A program made the position numbers and the translations under genes. The notes beneath the pieces were generated by a model, which worked only from the letters and a program-made list of their open reading frames with translations, searched no databases and was not told where the DNA came from. Shown here piece by piece: positions 15,499 through 23,597 of a stretch of 37,150 bases of DNA. Positions within the stretch are counted from its first letter, which is position 1; every line of letters begins with the position of its first letter. Origin of the DNA: Flavobacteriales bacterium (lineage in GTDB: Bacteria; Bacteroidota; Bacteroidia; Flavobacteriales; UBA7312). The stretch spans positions 1 to 37,150 of the forward strand of contig JAQWJZ010000013.1 of assembly GCA_029248105.1 (NCBI GenBank). Direction: 5' to 3'.

Positions 15499-15545
15499 TA
15501 GTCTGCTCTATTTTCTTTGTTAGTTTAAGTAAGAGTCATATTTGT

Positions 15546-15553
15546 TATATTTG
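15546..15553 (+). promoter_or_regulatory. promoter -7 element of the giant surface protein gene
   Basis: TATATTTG matches TAnnTTTG exactly and is followed by TACC. It lies 30 bases upstream of the TTG start at 15584, which supports that start over any start at 15542. A TTTG occurs 26 bases upstream, longer than the usual spacer. Confidence 0.5.
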
Positions 15554-15583
15554 TACCTCTTTTTAAACTTAATAAGTTCGACC

Positions 15584-18500
15584 TTGAAATATTATATACT
15601 GCTACTTTCTTTGTTTTTTGCATCCTTTACTAATGCTCAAGTTTTTCAAGGTACGGGAGGTAATATTCCAGATGCTACATTTTTTGGACCATCTCCATGG
15701 TTTGACTATTACTTGAATGTTAACTCAGTCGGAACAATAAATTGTGATATAACTGTATGTTTAGATATTTCTCATACCTACACAGATGATTTAGATATTA
15801 GGCTCATTTCCCCTTCTGGTACGATTGTTTACTTATCCACTGATAATGGAGGTGCTGGCGATAATTACACAAATACTTGTTTTACAACTTCCGCCACAAC
15901 CAATATAACAGCAGGTAATGCTCCTTTTACAGGTGACTATGTGCCTGAGGGCAATTTATCAAGTTTTAATGGACAAAATGCTAACGGTCAGTGGCGTTTG
16001 CAAATAAGGGATGATGACTGGATTTTTTCAGGAACACTTAATTCTTGGTCTATTGATTTTACCTGTCAGGCGGATTGTGAAGATGGTGAAGAAGGATATA
16101 CTCTTAATTTATTTGATTCCTATGGGGATGGATGGGATCATGGTTCTGGACACCTAGTAACAATTAATGGAGTAGATTATGGCGGTTATGATTTCACTAC
16201 AGGAACTTTTTATTCTTATACGATTTGTTTAGATCCAACAGATTGTTTTGATATATCTTTTACAGACGGTGGACCATGGGAGTATGAATGTTCCTATGAG
16301 CTTGTCAATAACCTTGGAGTTACCATTTTTTCGGGAAACCACTTAACAGCTGATCAAACAATTGGAGATTGTGAAGTAGGGGGTTGTACAGACCCTGTAG
16401 CTTGTAATTATGATTCTGAAGCTGAAGAAGATGATGGAAGTTGCTTTTATTCACCTCTAGCCACAGATGACTGTGAATCATTATATTGTGCAAGTCAGCT
16501 GGGTGAACAAGTAGCAAGTCAATTTATAGGTACAAATATCAATTACCTTACTATTGATATAACAGAAGACGGTATAATTAATGAATTATTTTATGATGTA
16601 TACTGGCATAGTCATGGTTGGGGTAATATAAATTTTAATATCAATAATGCCACTATAGCATTGTACGATAATCAAGGTGCTTTCGTTCAAAATATTGAAG
16701 TTATAGGAAATAATCTTAGTACTGCTAACTATCAAAATTTCACAAACACATTAAATACAGACATAAACGTATATGCTGGATATTCAATTCAAGTGATTAT
16801 AAATAGTCCCAATTGGGGTGGAGGTACTTGGGAGTCTTATGTAAATGAAGCAAATATTTCGTTCACTCTCATTACAGAATCCATTAATGCTGGTAATGAT
16901 ATTCAGGGTTACTCGATGTGTTATGATGACCCACCAATAAATTTATTTAACTTTTTAGGAAATAACGTTGATCAAGATGGTACTTGGTCACCTGCTCTTT
17001 CTGGTGGTTATTTAGGAACATTTGATCCTCAAATTAATTCAAGTGACGATTATATATATACTGTAGTAGGTGAATGCTTATCGGATTTTTCTACTATCCC
17101 CATTACGGTTATAGATTTATTGACTCCGGAGATTGTTTCTAGTCAAGATACTATTTGTTTTGGAGCCTCATCATTAGTTACTTATTCTGTGACTTCTAAT
17201 CAAGGCTCTTCATATTCTTGGTCAGTTAGTGGAGGTAATATTGTTGGTTCTTCAAATGGTAATTCAATTCAGGTAGATTGGTCGGCAACACCTATGGGTA
17301 CAATCTCAAATGCTGTAGTTATAACAGAGAGTTCATATGGCTGTACTAACAGTTCATCAATTGATGTAACAGTTGTATCTAATCCGATTCCAGCTCTAAG
17401 TATAGATGATGTTGAGATATGTTTAGGTGAATCAATCACAGTAAGCACCAATGCAATTTATAATGACTATCAATGGACACCAGCAGTTATAAGTTCAAGT
17501 TCAGATGTTTATACGCCTAACTCCATTACTGACAATCAGATTACTGTAACAGTTACAGGAGATGGTGGTTGTACAACATCTGAATCTATTGACTTTACAG
17601 TTTATGAAACCCCGGTAGTAAATTTATCTATTGTTGATTCAGAAATTTGTATGTCTGATTCTTTGGTGCTAACATCTAACCCTGGATATGACGATTATTC
17701 GTGGACACCATCTACTATTTCTGGTAGTACGGATGTGTATTATCCTTCATCATCATCAGAGGATATGGTATCACTTACAGTTACTGGTGATGGGGGTTGT
17801 ACAAGTACAGAGACATTAGATATCGTTGTTTACGATCTGCCTGTTGTGAACCTTACAATAGATAATCAAGAAATATGTATCGGTGAATCAGTAAACCTTA
17901 GTACAACAGCAGGATACAATAATTACGATTGGACACCTTCATCAATAAGTTCAAATTCAGACACTTACACGCCTACATCTTTAACGGATAATCTAATTTC
18001 AGTAACTATTACAGCTGACGGTGGTTGTACTTCCTCAGATTCTGTTGACATAACCATTTATGATTTGCCCATTGTTAATTTGTCAATAGACGATGCCGAT
18101 TTGTGCATGGGAGAATCACTAGTTGTAAGTTCAAATCCTGCTTATAATGATTACTCTTGGACGCCATCTTCCATTACAGGTAATACAGATATTTATACTC
18201 CTTCATCATCATCAGAAGATATGATATCACTTACTATTACTGGAGATGGAGGTTGTACAAGTACAGAGACATTAGATATCGTTGTTTACGATCTGCCTGT
18301 TGTGAATCTTACAATAGATAATCAAGAAATATGTATCGGTGAATCAATAAACCTAAGTACAACAGCAGGATACAATAATTACGATTGGACGCCATCGGTA
18401 ATCAATTCAAATACAGATGTTTACACACCATTATCACTAACAGATAATCAATTTTTTATTACAATAACAGGGGATGGGTCTTGTACATCAAGTGATTCTA

Positions 18501-20041
18501 TTCAGCTTATTGTTAATCCGCTTCCTATTGTTGAAGTTTCTTTATCAGATAGCGTTATATGTTTAGGAGAGTCAATAGCTGTTAACTCGACTTCAGGTTT
18601 TGTGAATTATGATTGGACACCCACATTAATAAATACATCAAATGTAATTACCCCTTTAATAGGCCAAACGAATTACCTTGTTGAAGTTACGGATAGTAAC
18701 GGTTGTATTTCTTCCGATGATGCTGATTTAGTCATCAATCAATCAACACCAATTAACCTATCTGTCAATGGTGGTAATTCCACTACAATATGTGTTGGTG
18801 AAGAGATTGATTTATTCGCTACACCTGGATTTGATTTGTATACATGGTCAGTTCCTGGATTATCATCAAATCAAGAAAGTTATGTGCCTTCAGATTTGTC
18901 AGATAATCAATTTTCTGTTATTGGTACTAACCAATTTGGATGTAATTCATCAGCAAGTTTGAATATTACTATCAATAGTATTCCAACCCCTAGTTTAATA
19001 TCTGTATTATCAGATAGCATACAAACATCGCCACAAAGTATTAATTTGTGTGAAGGCATCTCAAATGTTAAATTCTCTTCCATAATAAGTAGTGATTCAA
19101 ACCCTGTTGAATGGCTTTTTGTTAGTGGTAATGGTGCTGTAATTGAAAGTGGTCAAAATACATCAGAGATTGAAGTGTCATTTCCTGATGTTGAAGATTA
19201 TATTTTAGAATTTAGAGAGTATGGATCTGTTAATTGTTACACCCCTCAGCAAATAGAGGTTAAGGTTAATCCTAATCCAGTCCTTGATGTAAGTTATGTA
19301 GAAGATTGTTATAAGGATTCTGTCTTTTTTACTAATAACTCTAATGTAGACACAACTATTCAAAGTGTTTCGTGGTTGGTAGAGGGGCTTAGCTTTGACA
19401 GCTACAATTTAACTTATCCTCTAGATAATAATAGTAAGATTTTTGAACTTACCATTGTTGATGTGTTGAATTGTTCTTCATCATTATCTACAAGTTTCGT
19501 TCCATCAGAGAGGCCTTATGTAGATTTTTATCACGAACCAGAAAAAATTACAATATTAGATCCTGAAGTTTCATTTGTAAACCTTTCTACTTATAACGAT
19601 AGTGTTTCGTGGAGTTTTGGTGATAATCAAATGTCAGAAGAATGGGAACCTATTCATACCTACGATTCATTAGGTTGGTTTGAAGTTATTTTGAAAGTAC
19701 AGAATGATGAAGGTTGTGCGGATTCTATTTCTAAACAATTATTGATTGAAAATAATCTCATTTATTATTTTCCAAGCTCTTTTACTCCAGATGGTGATGG
19801 CTTAAATGATGAGTTTGGTATCAGTGGATTTAGAAAAGATAAAATGCAAAACTACCAATTTCAAATAACCAACAGGTGGGGTGAAATAGTATTCTATTCT
19901 GAAGATGTAAATCAAAAATGGAATGGAAAAACATCTAATGGAAACGATGCTATTCCTGGAAGTTATTTGTGGTCTGTTCGAATAGTTGATGAGTTAGGAA
20001 AAGTGACTAGAAAGTTTGGTGATTTCACACTAATGAGGTAG
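15584..20041 (+). CDS. giant modular T9SS-secreted surface protein (P-domain, PKD/Ig-like repeats, CHU_C)
   Basis: 1485 residues from TTG 15584, giving the signal peptide MKYYILLLSLFFASFTNAQ; a start at 15542 would precede the promoter. Order of parts: proprotein-convertase P-like domain (about 20-162, DDLDIRLISPSGT...GQWRLQIRDD); a SYGDGWDHGSG domain (163-265); a GCTDPVACNYD...DDGSC motif (266-287); an unrecognised beta domain (288-435); a NLFNFLGNNV...WSPALSGGYLG module (436-522); a PKD-like domain (SYSWSVSGGNIVG, 523-605); seven Ig-like repeats of about 76 residues (606-1135); PKD domains with VSWSFGD; and the C-terminal gliding-motility CHU_C sorting domain (FTPDGDGLNDEF...NRWGEIVF, about 1394-1485). 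It should be exported by Sec then the type IX system to the cell surface or medium. The role is probably adhesin-like. The next three genes are a split paralogue of it. Confidence 0.88.
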   Translation: MKYYILLLSLFFASFTNAQVFQGTGGNIPDATFFGPSPWFDYYLNVNSVGTINCDITVCLDISHTYTDDLDIRLISPSGTIVYLSTDNGGAGDNYTNTCFTTSATTNITAGNAPFTGDYVPEGNLSSFNGQNANGQWRLQIRDDDWIFSGTLNSWSIDFTCQADCEDGEEGYTLNLFDSYGDGWDHGSGHLVTINGVDYGGYDFTTGTFYSYTICLDPTDCFDISFTDGGPWEYECSYELVNNLGVTIFSGNHLTADQTIGDCEVGGCTDPVACNYDSEAEEDDGSCFYSPLATDDCESLYCASQLGEQVASQFIGTNINYLTIDITEDGIINELFYDVYWHSHGWGNINFNINNATIALYDNQGAFVQNIEVIGNNLSTANYQNFTNTLNTDINVYAGYSIQVIINSPNWGGGTWESYVNEANISFTLITESINAGNDIQGYSMCYDDPPINLFNFLGNNVDQDGTWSPALSGGYLGTFDPQINSSDDYIYTVVGECLSDFSTIPITVIDLLTPEIVSSQDTICFGASSLVTYSVTSNQGSSYSWSVSGGNIVGSSNGNSIQVDWSATPMGTISNAVVITESSYGCTNSSSIDVTVVSNPIPALSIDDVEICLGESITVSTNAIYNDYQWTPAVISSSSDVYTPNSITDNQITVTVTGDGGCTTSESIDFTVYETPVVNLSIVDSEICMSDSLVLTSNPGYDDYSWTPSTISGSTDVYYPSSSSEDMVSLTVTGDGGCTSTETLDIVVYDLPVVNLTIDNQEICIGESVNLSTTAGYNNYDWTPSSISSNSDTYTPTSLTDNLISVTITADGGCTSSDSVDITIYDLPIVNLSIDDADLCMGESLVVSSNPAYNDYSWTPSSITGNTDIYTPSSSSEDMISLTITGDGGCTSTETLDIVVYDLPVVNLTIDNQEICIGESINLSTTAGYNNYDWTPSVINSNTDVYTPLSLTDNQFFITITGDGSCTSSDSIQLIVNPLPIVEVSLSDSVICLGESIAVNSTSGFVNYDWTPTLINTSNVITPLIGQTNYLVEVTDSNGCISSDDADLVINQSTPINLSVNGGNSTTICVGEEIDLFATPGFDLYTWSVPGLSSNQESYVPSDLSDNQFSVIGTNQFGCNSSASLNITINSIPTPSLISVLSDSIQTSPQSINLCEGISNVKFSSIISSDSNPVEWLFVSGNGAVIESGQNTSEIEVSFPDVEDYILEFREYGSVNCYTPQQIEVKVNPNPVLDVSYVEDCYKDSVFFTNNSNVDTTIQSVSWLVEGLSFDSYNLTYPLDNNSKIFELTIVDVLNCSSSLSTSFVPSERPYVDFYHEPEKITILDPEVSFVNLSTYNDSVSWSFGDNQMSEEWEPIHTYDSLGWFEVILKVQNDEGCADSISKQLLIENNLIYYFPSSFTPDGDGLNDEFGISGFRKDKMQNYQFQITNRWGEIVFYSEDVNQKWNGKTSNGNDAIPGSYLWSVRIVDELGKVTRKFGDFTLMR
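17393..18985 (+). repeat. seven Ig-like coding repeats
   Basis: Seven in-frame repeats start near 17393, 17618, 17846, 18074, 18302, 18530 and 18752, most of 225-228 bases. Each encodes a pattern like xLSIxDxxICxGES...YxxYxWTPSxI...TPxSLTDN...ITGDGGCTS. Two conserved cysteines per unit probably form a disulfide. They lie within the giant protein and are not a CRISPR array. Confidence 0.85.
17618..18529 (+). repeat. 456-bp tandem duplication (two repeat units, two copies)
   Basis: 17618-18073 and 18074-18529 are tandem copies of a two-repeat block. Within them, from about 17813 and 18269 on, more than 110 bases are almost identical, for example the run coding ETLDIVVYDLPVVNLTIDNQ in both. The near-identity at the DNA level implies recent duplication or gene conversion. 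Confidence 0.85.
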
Positions 20042-20136
20042 TTGACAACTTTCATATGAAACATATTTAGTAAATTTACGTACAAGAAAGTTGATTTTGT
20101 CTTAACTCTGTTTAATATTTTTTAACCTACAACTAG

Positions 20137-21468
20137 TTGATTTTGAGGTGTATATTCATAATATCTTTTCTTTGTTTACACATGTATTCTTATGCTCAAT
20201 GTGTTGAAGATGAATCTTATTCTTTAAACCCTGAGGGTCCTTATCAAATTGGTGATATTGTTACTGTAGATTATACTTTGGAAAGTTTTTATCAATTGAA
20301 TACTAATTGGGTAATAGCTTTCCAAGTTAACTTAGGTGAAGGATGGACTAATTTAACCCCTATTTCTACTCCTCTAAATACAAATACAAATAATAATTTA
20401 GGTAATGGCTATTGGATATGGGATACGGAAAACACTTACCCTAGTGGACTTGAATTTGGGCCCGGATTTAGGTTTGTTAACAATAGTTGGTATTATTCCT
20501 GGTGGACAGGACAGCTAGTTGGAAATCCCAATTGGGGATCGTCTTCAACAGGTCCTTTATCATTTTCTTTTGAAGTTACTGTTAATGAATCTTGTACTCC
20601 TGAGGATCTTTTTATCAGTATTAATGTATATGGAGATTGTCAAACAGGGGGTTGGAATAATGGAGATTGTTGCTCTGATACAGCATTAGTAAATTATAAC
20701 GATTCACTTTTTGTTTATTCAGATTTAAACTCTGGTTCTGATACTTCTTTAATTTATTGTCAAGAATCTAGCGAGTTTAACTTATTCAATTTATTAGGTG
20801 ATAACGTTCAAAACGATGGCTTTTGGACTCCGTCACTCGCTCAAGGTTATTTAGGCCAGTTTAATCCATCGGTTAATACGCCACAAGAATATGTATATAC
20901 TGTTTCTGATGATTGCAATAGTGAATCTTCTAGTGTGATTTTAAGTCTAGTTAATTCAGATGCACAGACAACAGTAGAATTTCAATTATGTGACAATGCT
21001 TTATCAACAAGCCTTTATAATGTTTTAGGTGTAGACAATACATCTGGAAGTTGGGGAGGCGTTTCTGATTTATCTCAAAGTCAAGCACCAGATTATCTGG
21101 GTTTATTTAACCCGCAAGAACAGACATTTGGACTTTATAATTATACTGTTTTAAATAATAATGGTTGTGAATTAAGTTATCTTATTGAAGTATCTCTACT
21201 TGAAGAGAATATCAACGTGGGTAATGATTTTGATTTAGAAATGTGTAATGACGATCCAGGTCTTAATTTTTATAATTTAATAGGTAGTCCAGATATAAAT
21301 GGTATATGGTCTCCTTCTTTAAATGCTGGTTATTTGGGCTATTTTAATCCATCCACGAACCTTTCAGGAGTTTATACGTACAACATCGATGGGGAGTGTG
21401 ATACGTATCAGTCTCAGGTCAACGTTAGCGTTATTGAAGTTGTACCACCACCTATAATTTCAAACTAA
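20137..21468 (+). CDS. split-adhesin chain A: secreted protein with three NLFNLLG/YLG modules
   Basis: 443 residues from TTG 20137 (TTG 20143 is equally possible); the signal peptide ends ...LHMYSYAQ. The first 180 or so mature residues (CVEDESYSLNPEGPYQIGD...) form a beta-rich domain I do not recognise. Then come three modules of the type NLFNLLGDNV...GFWTPSLAQGYLGQFNPS...YVYTV, the module present once in the giant protein upstream (its residues 436-522). The protein stops at ...VVPPPIISN, in the linker where the giant continues into its PKD-like domain. It has no T9SS sorting domain of any type, so by itself it would be expected to stay in the periplasm. The next gene begins 30 bases downstream and continues the colinear match. 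Confidence 0.8.
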   Translation: MILRCIFIISFLCLHMYSYAQCVEDESYSLNPEGPYQIGDIVTVDYTLESFYQLNTNWVIAFQVNLGEGWTNLTPISTPLNTNTNNNLGNGYWIWDTENTYPSGLEFGPGFRFVNNSWYYSWWTGQLVGNPNWGSSSTGPLSFSFEVTVNESCTPEDLFISINVYGDCQTGGWNNGDCCSDTALVNYNDSLFVYSDLNSGSDTSLIYCQESSEFNLFNLLGDNVQNDGFWTPSLAQGYLGQFNPSVNTPQEYVYTVSDDCNSESSSVILSLVNSDAQTTVEFQLCDNALSTSLYNVLGVDNTSGSWGGVSDLSQSQAPDYLGLFNPQEQTFGLYNYTVLNNNGCELSYLIEVSLLEENINVGNDFDLEMCNDDPGLNFYNLIGSPDINGIWSPSLNAGYLGYFNPSTNLSGVYTYNIDGECDTYQSQVNVSVIEVVPPPIISN

Positions 21469-21498
21469 GCTTTATTACTTAACTTAACTAATTACATT

Positions 21499-22530
21499 AT
21501 GAAAAATTTTATTCATTTATTACTTACAGTTTTTATATCATTTGCATTTTCAACTATAGCACACGCACAAATTGATACTTTGTGTTTTGGCTCTACATTG
21601 GAAAACTATTCAATAACGCCTAATGTTGGCTCTTCATATTCTTGGAGTGTTTCTGGTGGAGGAATAATAGTGGGTTCTTCTGTTGGCACGTCCATTCAGG
21701 TGGATTGGTCTAATGCTCCTGTTGGCTTTATAAACAACGCTATTACACTTACTGAAGAACTAAATGGCTGTACAGCTGATCAATTGTTAAGTGTTGAGAT
21801 TTTGGATAATCCGACGCCTAATTTATCAGCATCAGATCAGTCAATATGCTTAGGAGATTCTGTATTATTATCTGCTGATAGTGGTTACGATACTTATAAC
21901 TGGTCTCCTTCTTCGATAGTAGGGACTTCATTTTTCTACACACCCAACTCTCTTACTGATAACACCTTTGATTTAGAAGTAATAGGCCAAGGTGGGTGTT
22001 CAGCAACTGAAAGTATTCAAATTGAGATTTTTGATCTTCCTACTGTTGAGGTTTCACTTTCTGATAGTGTTATTTGTTTGGGTGAATCAATAACTGTAAG
22101 TGCAACCAATGGATTATCATCATATACTTGGTCTAATCCAGCTCTTTCGGGCCAACAAACTACTTTAACTCCTGCTATTGGAGAAACAGATTATAGTGTT
22201 ACAGTAACGGATGCAAATGGTTGTGTAGCATTAGATGATGTAACTTTAACTATTGATTTAGTTAACCCAGTTGTGTTAACAGTTAATGGTAGCAACACAA
22301 CGACCATATGTTTAGGTGAAAGCATTTCTTTAGAGGCTACACCAGGCTTAAATGCTTACGAGTGGGCTCCTGCTGTAGTTGTTGGTGATAATGGTATCTA
22401 TGAGCCTCAGAATACGTCTGAGACCTCATATACTGTCACTTCTACTGATGCTAATGGTTGTCAGTCTGTTGATACTATCAACATTACAATTAACAATTTA
22501 CCGAATCCAGGTCCAATTATATTTAATTAA
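21499..22530 (+). CDS. split-adhesin chain B: secreted PKD-like/Ig-repeat protein without sorting domain
   Basis: 343 residues from ATG 21499 with a strong signal peptide ending ...TIAHAQ. The mature chain begins at once with IDTLCFGSTLENYSI and a PKD-like domain (SYSWSVSGGGIIVGSS), matching the giant's residues from 523 (DTICFGASS...). It continues with three Ig-like repeats that correspond best to repeats 1, 6 and 7 of the giant; VEVSLSDSVICLGESI is identical in both. It ends at ...LPNPGPIIFN in the linker after the last repeat. No CHU_C or por-type sorting domain is present. The third chain starts five bases after its stop, so the two are translated from one message. Confidence 0.82.
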   Translation: MKNFIHLLLTVFISFAFSTIAHAQIDTLCFGSTLENYSITPNVGSSYSWSVSGGGIIVGSSVGTSIQVDWSNAPVGFINNAITLTEELNGCTADQLLSVEILDNPTPNLSASDQSICLGDSVLLSADSGYDTYNWSPSSIVGTSFFYTPNSLTDNTFDLEVIGQGGCSATESIQIEIFDLPTVEVSLSDSVICLGESITVSATNGLSSYTWSNPALSGQQTTLTPAIGETDYSVTVTDANGCVALDDVTLTIDLVNPVVLTVNGSNTTTICLGESISLEATPGLNAYEWAPAVVVGDNGIYEPQNTSETSYTVTSTDANGCQSVDTINITINNLPNPGPIIFN

Positions 22531-22535
22531 TCAGA

Positions 22536-23597
22536 ATGCATAGACTGCTTATACTTTTCTTTTTAAAGTTAAGTTTTCTAGGCTATTGTCAAAATCTTCA
22601 AATATGTCATAGCGATAGCCTAGTTGATTTTTCTGTTGTACCTAGCTCTTTAACAAATGCTCTTGAATGGGAGTTTATTTTTGGTGATGGTGCAGAAATT
22701 ATTGATGGACAGTTTTCCGATAGTATAAGTGTAAAGTTCTCAAACCCTGGTGAATATATTCTTCAACTTAGAGAAGTTGCTTCTAATGATTGTTTTACAC
22801 CTGTAGATTTAAACATATTTGTCAGTCCAAATCCATTAGCAAGTTTTTCTAATGATGGGGTGTGTATATATGATTCAGTTAAATTTTTCAATACTTCTAT
22901 TGCGAATGATGGCATACAGTCCTCTATTTGGAGAGTTGGTAATGAAGTTTTTGATGACATAGATTTAAATTATAAATTCGATGAGACTGGAGAATATCTA
23001 ATAGAATTATCTGTAGTAAGTAACTCTGGGTGTTCAGATACAGAATCTTTGATATTTAGTTTGTCAGATAGACCAATGGCTGATTTTTATCATTATCCAG
23101 AAAAAATTACTACCCTTGACCCAACTGTTGAGTTTGTAAATATTTCTTCCGAGGGGAGTGTCAGTTGGAGTTTTGGTGATGAGCTTTTTTCTGATGAATG
23201 GCAGCCGACACACTATTATCCAGCAGCAGGTTGGTACGATGTTCAATTGACCATAGAAGATGAAAATGGTTGCTTAGACTCTATAACAAAGAGCCTACTC
23301 GTTGAAAATGAACTTATTTATTATTTACCTACCTCATTTACACCTGATGGTGATGGTTTGAATGATGACTTTGGTTTAAAAGGATTCAATATCGATAGAA
23401 TACAAGAATTTTCTCTAGTAATAACTAATAGGTGGGGTGAAGTTATTTTTTCTGTAGATGATATTAGCCAAACATGGAGGGGTGAAAATTTGCTAGGAAA
23501 TGCTGCTATGACGGGCACCTATTTATGGTCAATTCGTATCAAAGATGAATTGGGAAAGCAAACCAGACATATAGGAGAGGTAACTCTTCTAAGGTAG
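22536..23597 (+). CDS. split-adhesin chain C: PKD protein with CHU_C T9SS sorting domain
   Basis: 353 residues from ATG 22536 with the signal peptide MHRLLILFFLKLSFLGYCQ. The mature part matches the giant's last third: ICHSDSLVDFSV..., YILQLRE, DGVCIYDSVKF, then MADFYHYPEKITTLDPTVEF with the PKD signature VSWSFGD, and the gliding-motility CHU_C domain from about residue 262 (FTPDGDGLNDDFG...NRWGEVIF...GTYLWSI). It is the only one of the three split chains with a type IX sorting signal. It could be a surface protein by itself or the outer anchor for chains A and B. Its stop is one base from the convergent lolA stop. Confidence 0.85.
   Translation: MHRLLILFFLKLSFLGYCQNLQICHSDSLVDFSVVPSSLTNALEWEFIFGDGAEIIDGQFSDSISVKFSNPGEYILQLREVASNDCFTPVDLNIFVSPNPLASFSNDGVCIYDSVKFFNTSIANDGIQSSIWRVGNEVFDDIDLNYKFDETGEYLIELSVVSNSGCSDTESLIFSLSDRPMADFYHYPEKITTLDPTVEFVNISSEGSVSWSFGDELFSDEWQPTHYYPAAGWYDVQLTIEDENGCLDSITKSLLVENELIYYLPTSFTPDGDGLNDDFGLKGFNIDRIQEFSLVITNRWGEVIFSVDDISQTWRGENLLGNAAMTGTYLWSIRIKDELGKQTRHIGEVTLLR

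Follow-up and report, generated by a model that had tools for sequence, protein, structure and literature searches.

A probable three-chain adhesin of Flavobacteriales, predicted to be joined by C-terminal strand donation and bearing a type IX sorting domain on its anchor chain only

We analysed a 37,150-nucleotide stretch of contig JAQWJZ010000013.1 (assembly GCA_029248105.1) from a Flavobacteriales bacterium, referred to here as the window. Open reading frame (ORF) calling in the window places a gene for a giant exported protein and, behind it on the same strand, three genes for chains designated A, B and C (Table 1), which are intact ORFs as delimited in an earlier note on this DNA. The cassette is flanked by genes for BshC, GuaA, LysM and LolA, and neither a chaperone nor an usher was found among these flanking genes. 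As read from the sequence, A, B and C each open with a short hydrophobic stretch, followed by a cleavage-like site that precedes Gln. A genome search for a second copy of chain A returned none. In the genus, the split cassette is retained next to a giant that is fused throughout (window 15542-23597); in the other genera examined, only a split or partly fused form is present at this locus.

Table 1 Features of the A-B-C locus in the window, and split and fused cassettes in viral contigs
Feature	Position	Strand	Basis
Giant, 1499 aa, fused paralogue of A-B-C; P_proprotein, Ig/PKD repeats, own type B CTD	15542..20041	+	Pfam/NCBIfam, BLASTP
Intact A/B-junction counterpart in giant: TPEIVSS strand, then acceptor domain	17123..17371	+	PKD_6 match, model
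Chain A, 443 aa; signal peptide, tip region of no assigned family, related repeats, C-terminal donor tail	20137..21468	+	ORF; orthologues in G002-G004
Start codon of A, TTG	20137 or 20143		
Predicted signal peptide of A, LILRCIFIISFLCLHMYSYA, cut before Q	20137..20196	+	Read from sequence
Donor tail of A, PPPIISN, C terminus; equivalent to TPEIVSS of giant	21445..21465	+	BLASTP alignment
Chain B, 343 aa; signal peptide, PKD_6 acceptor apparently without first strand, Ig_7-type domains, donor tail	21499..22530	+	ORF; full length kept in G002-G004
Acceptor domain of B, mature N terminus QIDTLCFG	21568..21813	+	PKD_6 from position 13; AlphaFold
Donor tail of B, NPGPIIFN, C terminus	22504..22527	+	Sequence, BLASTP; kept in orthologues
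Chain C, 353 aa (anchor); signal peptide, acceptor domain, PKD domains, type B CTD	22536..23597	+	ORF, Pfam, NCBIfam
Acceptor domain of C, mature N terminus QNLQICHSD	22590..22829	+	PKD_6 from position 12, under family cut-off
T9SS type B sorting domain of C, CHU_C/TIGR04131	23328..23594	+	Pfam, NCBIfam, genome-wide search
Split phage cassette	L238:430-2171		
Split phage cassette	L280:4511-6264		
Split phage cassette	L285:4699-6447		
Split phage cassette	L289:4384-7044		
Split phage cassette	L290:807-2563		
Split phage cassette	L294:4245-6453		
Fused single-gene phage form	L283:5023-6984		
Fused single-gene phage form	L257:4903-6915		
Fused single-gene phage form	L284:5086-6894		
Fused single-gene phage form	L252:4720-6372		
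Fused single-gene phage form	L295:1269-3467		

The earlier note had assigned Sec-type signal peptides to A and B and a type IX secretion system (T9SS) sorting domain to C alone among the three, and both assignments were borne out by sequence reading and by Pfam and NCBIfam searches. Chain C matches CHU_C (E 4.5e-15; 56 bits, cut-off 27) and TIGR04131 (37.3 bits, cut-off 35), while no sorting domain was detected in A or B at E 0.1 with either library. A genome-wide CHU_C search listed C and the giant, with A and B absent; a genome-wide Por_Secre_tail search gave no match on contig C13; and ten A-type chains taken from other cassettes likewise lack a sorting domain. The genome (1.74 Mb, 99% complete) encodes SprA (2,604 bits) and has six PorP_SprF matches, and export by T9SS is therefore plausible.

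BLASTP confirmed the further claim that A and B are homologous to parts of the giant, where these parts are fused to a sorting domain. The three chains tile the giant almost without gaps, A 350-443 aligning with giant 439-534, B 26-335 with giant 536-843 (in a second alignment, B 90-340 with 904-1153) and C 19-353 with giant 1165-1499, at E values down to 4e-102. The statement that A and B stop right after a linker proved wrong: each ends inside an Ig-like (PKD_6) domain, past its first strand. Directly before its stop codon A ends in PPPIISN and B in NPGPIIFN, and the remainder of each split domain opens the next chain behind its signal peptide. At the position of the A/B cut the giant reads TPEIVSSQDTICFG, to be compared with the A end PPPIISN and the mature B start QIDTLCFG in the separate chains.

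As judged from the profile alignments, the acceptor domains of B and C each lack one strand. Of the 82 positions of the PKD_6 profile, the Pfam match begins at 13 in B and 12 in C, compared with 4 in the intact domain of the giant. When the upstream tail was joined, the match start moved to 6 in both chains, with score gains of 2.1 bits (B) and 1.7 bits (C), compared with 0.5 for a shuffled tail. The corresponding gains for examples from other families lie between about zero and 0.6 bits, and such small gains count against the interpretation below. Together with the fused homologues, the alignments indicate that the strand missing from each acceptor is carried by the neighbouring chain.

AlphaFold predicts an Ig fold for the fragment of the giant, in which the equivalent of the A tail (I43-V44-S45) is a strand with pLDDT of about 80, followed by the next strand at 49-51 (TIC). 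For an in-frame read-through of A and B, in which the stop was read as a residue and the alignment rows of the acceptor lacked strand A, the acceptor was predicted confidently (pLDDT 93-97) and the tail was undocked at low confidence; the linker in this construct is the signal-peptide helix, making it a weak test.

On the simplest reading, which we consider probable, the three genes encode a single adhesin made as separate chains, joined by C-terminal strand donation from A to B to C and exported by way of the sorting domain of C. Each chain would be exported separately by Sec. In the periplasm, the C-terminal strand PPPIISN of A would be inserted in trans to complete the N-terminal Ig-like domain of B, which appears to lack its own first strand, and NPGPIIFN of B would likewise complete the N-terminal domain of C. 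The product would be a non-covalent rod of A (tip), B (linker) and C (anchor), assembled before passage of the outer membrane. With the type B domain on C alone, A and B would reach the surface bound to C, whose sorting domain would hold the rod on a PorP/SprF-type carrier for display and a role in adhesion. No PorP/SprF gene was seen beside A-B-C at the locus, which counts against this model.

The donor tails of cassettes mostly follow the pattern P-x-[TL]-G-P-I-x-H-[N/Y/W/F] and lie at the very C terminus. The fetched loci contain 1,894 distinct ORFs of 120 aa or more, of which 86 end in I-x-H-[N/Y/F/W/D/Q], compared with 0.8 expected from composition; since most of these loci were selected for carrying the cassette and many are related, the count gauges specificity rather than abundance. 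All 86 are cassette chains without a CTD; 82 have a further cassette member as neighbour, and in the remaining four cases the neighbours are broken or incomplete. In the genus studied here the motif histidine is replaced (PPPIISN, NPGPIIFN), which again counts against strand donation. A DNA pattern for the motif, GGNCCNATHNNNCAYWWYTRA, gave 17 matches in 148 genomes versus 4 for a backwards control; it was rejected as a cassette finder, missing this genus and giving matches of which about half of those inspected were not cassettes.

An alternative reading takes the motif (G/P-x-I-x-H-N and variants) for a short signal of a new type, used in sorting or processing, and not for a donor strand; this would suit its position at the exact C terminus, as in signals, and its confinement to exported chains without a CTD. 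We regard this as very unlikely, since the same segment occurs inside fused proteins, immediately before the acceptor domain and with no chain end, since it forms a strand in the model of the fused giant, and since acceptors lacking a strand are encoded near the donors. Fused phage homologues, for example, read PPIPSTGPINGLD followed by TICY before the acceptor cysteine, resembling separate tails such as IPTTGPINHW at a stop codon. When 27 fused domains from related sequences were scored with a tail profile, the segment before the acceptor was the best-scoring one of its entire protein in 8 and among the three best in 15. For the giant of the window itself, the profile places the segment only 96th of 1,492, a result counted against strand donation.

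The tails also bear on how the chain would be composed. In a variant of the strand-donation model, B tails would fill B acceptors as well, giving a B fibre of variable length with A at the tip and C at the base. B is both donor and acceptor, and the tails of A and B are alike, as such a polymer would call for; however, within family f11 the A tails (TQPINHN, TPPISHN) differ from those of B (TGPINHW, TGPIFHN), which suggests that each tail has its own acceptor, and we hold the variant to be distinctly unlikely.

The same A/B/C split is present in three further genomes of the genus (G002-G004), across which B (exactly 343 residues) and C are identical in length, and dN/dS values of 0.09-0.17 for A, B and C indicate purifying selection. 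The shared split and these values rule out an assembly error or a recent fission. In other genera of the family, one genome (G005) has the split form and two (G006, G009) have A and B fused with C separate. Across the order, cassettes of tip (A), linker (B) and anchor (C) were found in three families, and they occur in phages as well. In family f11 the three-part cassette lies mostly at guaA-LysM-A-B-C-lolA-ftsK, the same place as here, and in family f8 it adjoins pyrF/prfA-like genes, the neighbours outside the window having been named by eye from sequence. In the recipients compared, the signal peptide is followed at once by the acceptor domain. The tip chain, A, is modular, with GEVED, CUB, L-type or C-type lectin or IgGFc-binding domains varying by genome.

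A profile search with chain C across 396 genomes of the order ranked short split C chains above large fused proteins, the hits with E < 1e-105 all being such short chains, and gave C frames of 338-357 aa in about a dozen more f8 genomes. When genome contigs were searched with chain C, most of the 79 loci obtained encoded large fused proteins, and only two were clearly split (L066, L067). In the class-wide search nearly all hits were large fused frames, the few short frames being too partial for judging, and no further split C chain was listed outside the order. One f8 genome encodes one B and one C with two A-like donor chains (L178:360-4342), which look like alternative tips sharing one anchor. 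At two other f8 loci (L175:4376-7218 and L034:6919-12710) a donor chain lies downstream of C, and gene order is thus not always chain order.

The split cassette also occurs in six distinct viral contigs (Table 1), where B and C each measure about 190 aa and A ranges from 198 to 490 aa; the L238 cassette is short, at about 180-200 aa per chain. The start of the phage A resembles that of the window's A by eye, unscored. Retention of the same three-part organisation in this separate genome set speaks for a joint function of A, B and C. The six cassettes encode split adhesins predicted to be exported by Sec and T9SS. Most of the fused single-gene phage forms have a recognisable type B end, and those in L283 and L257 lie directly behind tail sheath/tube-like genes. 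Neighbouring genes in the phage contig set match tail sheath, tail tube and T4-type RNA ligase families, and the fused form is also present in a 635 kb phage record.

These comparisons weigh on a rival account of the locus, plain gene fission, by which A, B and C would be separate proteins of the surface or periplasm, without mutual contact and divided by chance close to domain borders. Split genes do occur and the tails are short, but in all families seen both junctions are cut within a domain and at the same strand; order and synteny are conserved, the chains are under purifying selection, and phages carry the same cassette. Fission of this kind is therefore highly improbable. We infer, with good support from the comparative sequence evidence, that A, B and C assemble.

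In chaperone-usher pili, donor strand exchange supplies the missing strand of an Ig-like subunit from a neighbour. The A-B-C cassette resembles these pili, at the level of sequence, in having an Ig-like domain that apparently lacks a strand and a neighbour to provide it; unlike them, it would donate from the C terminus rather than the N terminus, would form a heterotypic three-part chain, and has no visible chaperone or usher at its locus. Strand donation between subunits has been proposed for the type V fimbriae (FimA/Mfa) of Porphyromonas (PMC4789730, PMC5954841). Like A-B-C in the arrangement proposed here, these are surface structures of Bacteroidota; in A-B-C, by contrast, the donor is a C-terminal tail, the acceptor is an N-terminal Ig/PKD_6 domain and the anchor carries a T9SS domain, and Pfam gave no match to a FimA/Mfa-type pilin domain in A, B or C. 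The only solved relative of the B repeats by sequence, found also among the fold matches, is GhpA, the grappling hook protein of Aureispira (PDB 9flp among others; E 1.5e-76 for all repeats taken together, 1.9e-10 for the single best stretch), which is one chain of 5,898 residues, unlike the split A-B-C.

SprB-like T9SS adhesins with a type B CTD are anchored by PorP/SprF-type proteins (PMC9143113, PMC12618676). C and the giant resemble them in their type B domains and Ig/PKD repeats, and the genome encodes SprA and PorP/SprF; A and B differ in having no sorting domain. In PMC12618676, PMC12635249, PMC10202324 and PMC10994853, T9SS substrates are described with their own CTD in the same chain, and term searches of these papers found no CTD-less partner of the A/B kind. 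Literature searches on donor strands with type IX secretion and on co-secretion returned only Mfa/FimA fimbriae and unrelated work, in a coverage that mostly leaves out subscription journals, and no published account of an A-B-C-like system was found within this incomplete coverage. To our knowledge, no system of this kind has been described.

The earlier note had suggested that A and B bind C and leave with it. Binding and dependence on C are supported by the break inside a domain, the conserved donor tails, the matching acceptors, the fused homologues and the cassette kept in bacteria and phages, and strand donation, which that note had missed, provides a physical reason for A-B-C to bind. 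The second half of the suggestion is carried less far by these data: we infer joint crossing of the outer membrane because A and B show no other export signal. Strand donation could also hold with A and B taking another route, joining C at the surface or staying in the periplasm, and the sorting signal of C being the only one visible fits such a course. We consider it unlikely, given that no second route is visible, that the lectin, CUB, GEVED and IgGFc-binding domains of related A chains fit an extracellular role, and that in the giant the corresponding parts are joined to a sorting domain. That A and B would leave together with C remains our preferred reading.

Should this reading hold, export by the type IX secretion system would extend to assembled multi-chain complexes, beyond single CTD-bearing chains, and substrate prediction would change, with CTD-less exported proteins that adjoin a CTD partner counted as surface proteins. 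Strand-donation assembly would need no usher, and the strand motif makes the idea directly testable. Cells could exchange adhesive tips while leaving the anchor untouched, and the recurrent phage cassette would gain meaning. Tentatively, the cassette may represent a new class of non-covalent surface fibre, in which tip, linker and anchor are joined C-to-N by strands, only the anchor bears the T9SS signal, multi-chain complexes pass through the type IX translocon, and Bacteroidota phages display an adhesin of their own on the infected cell.
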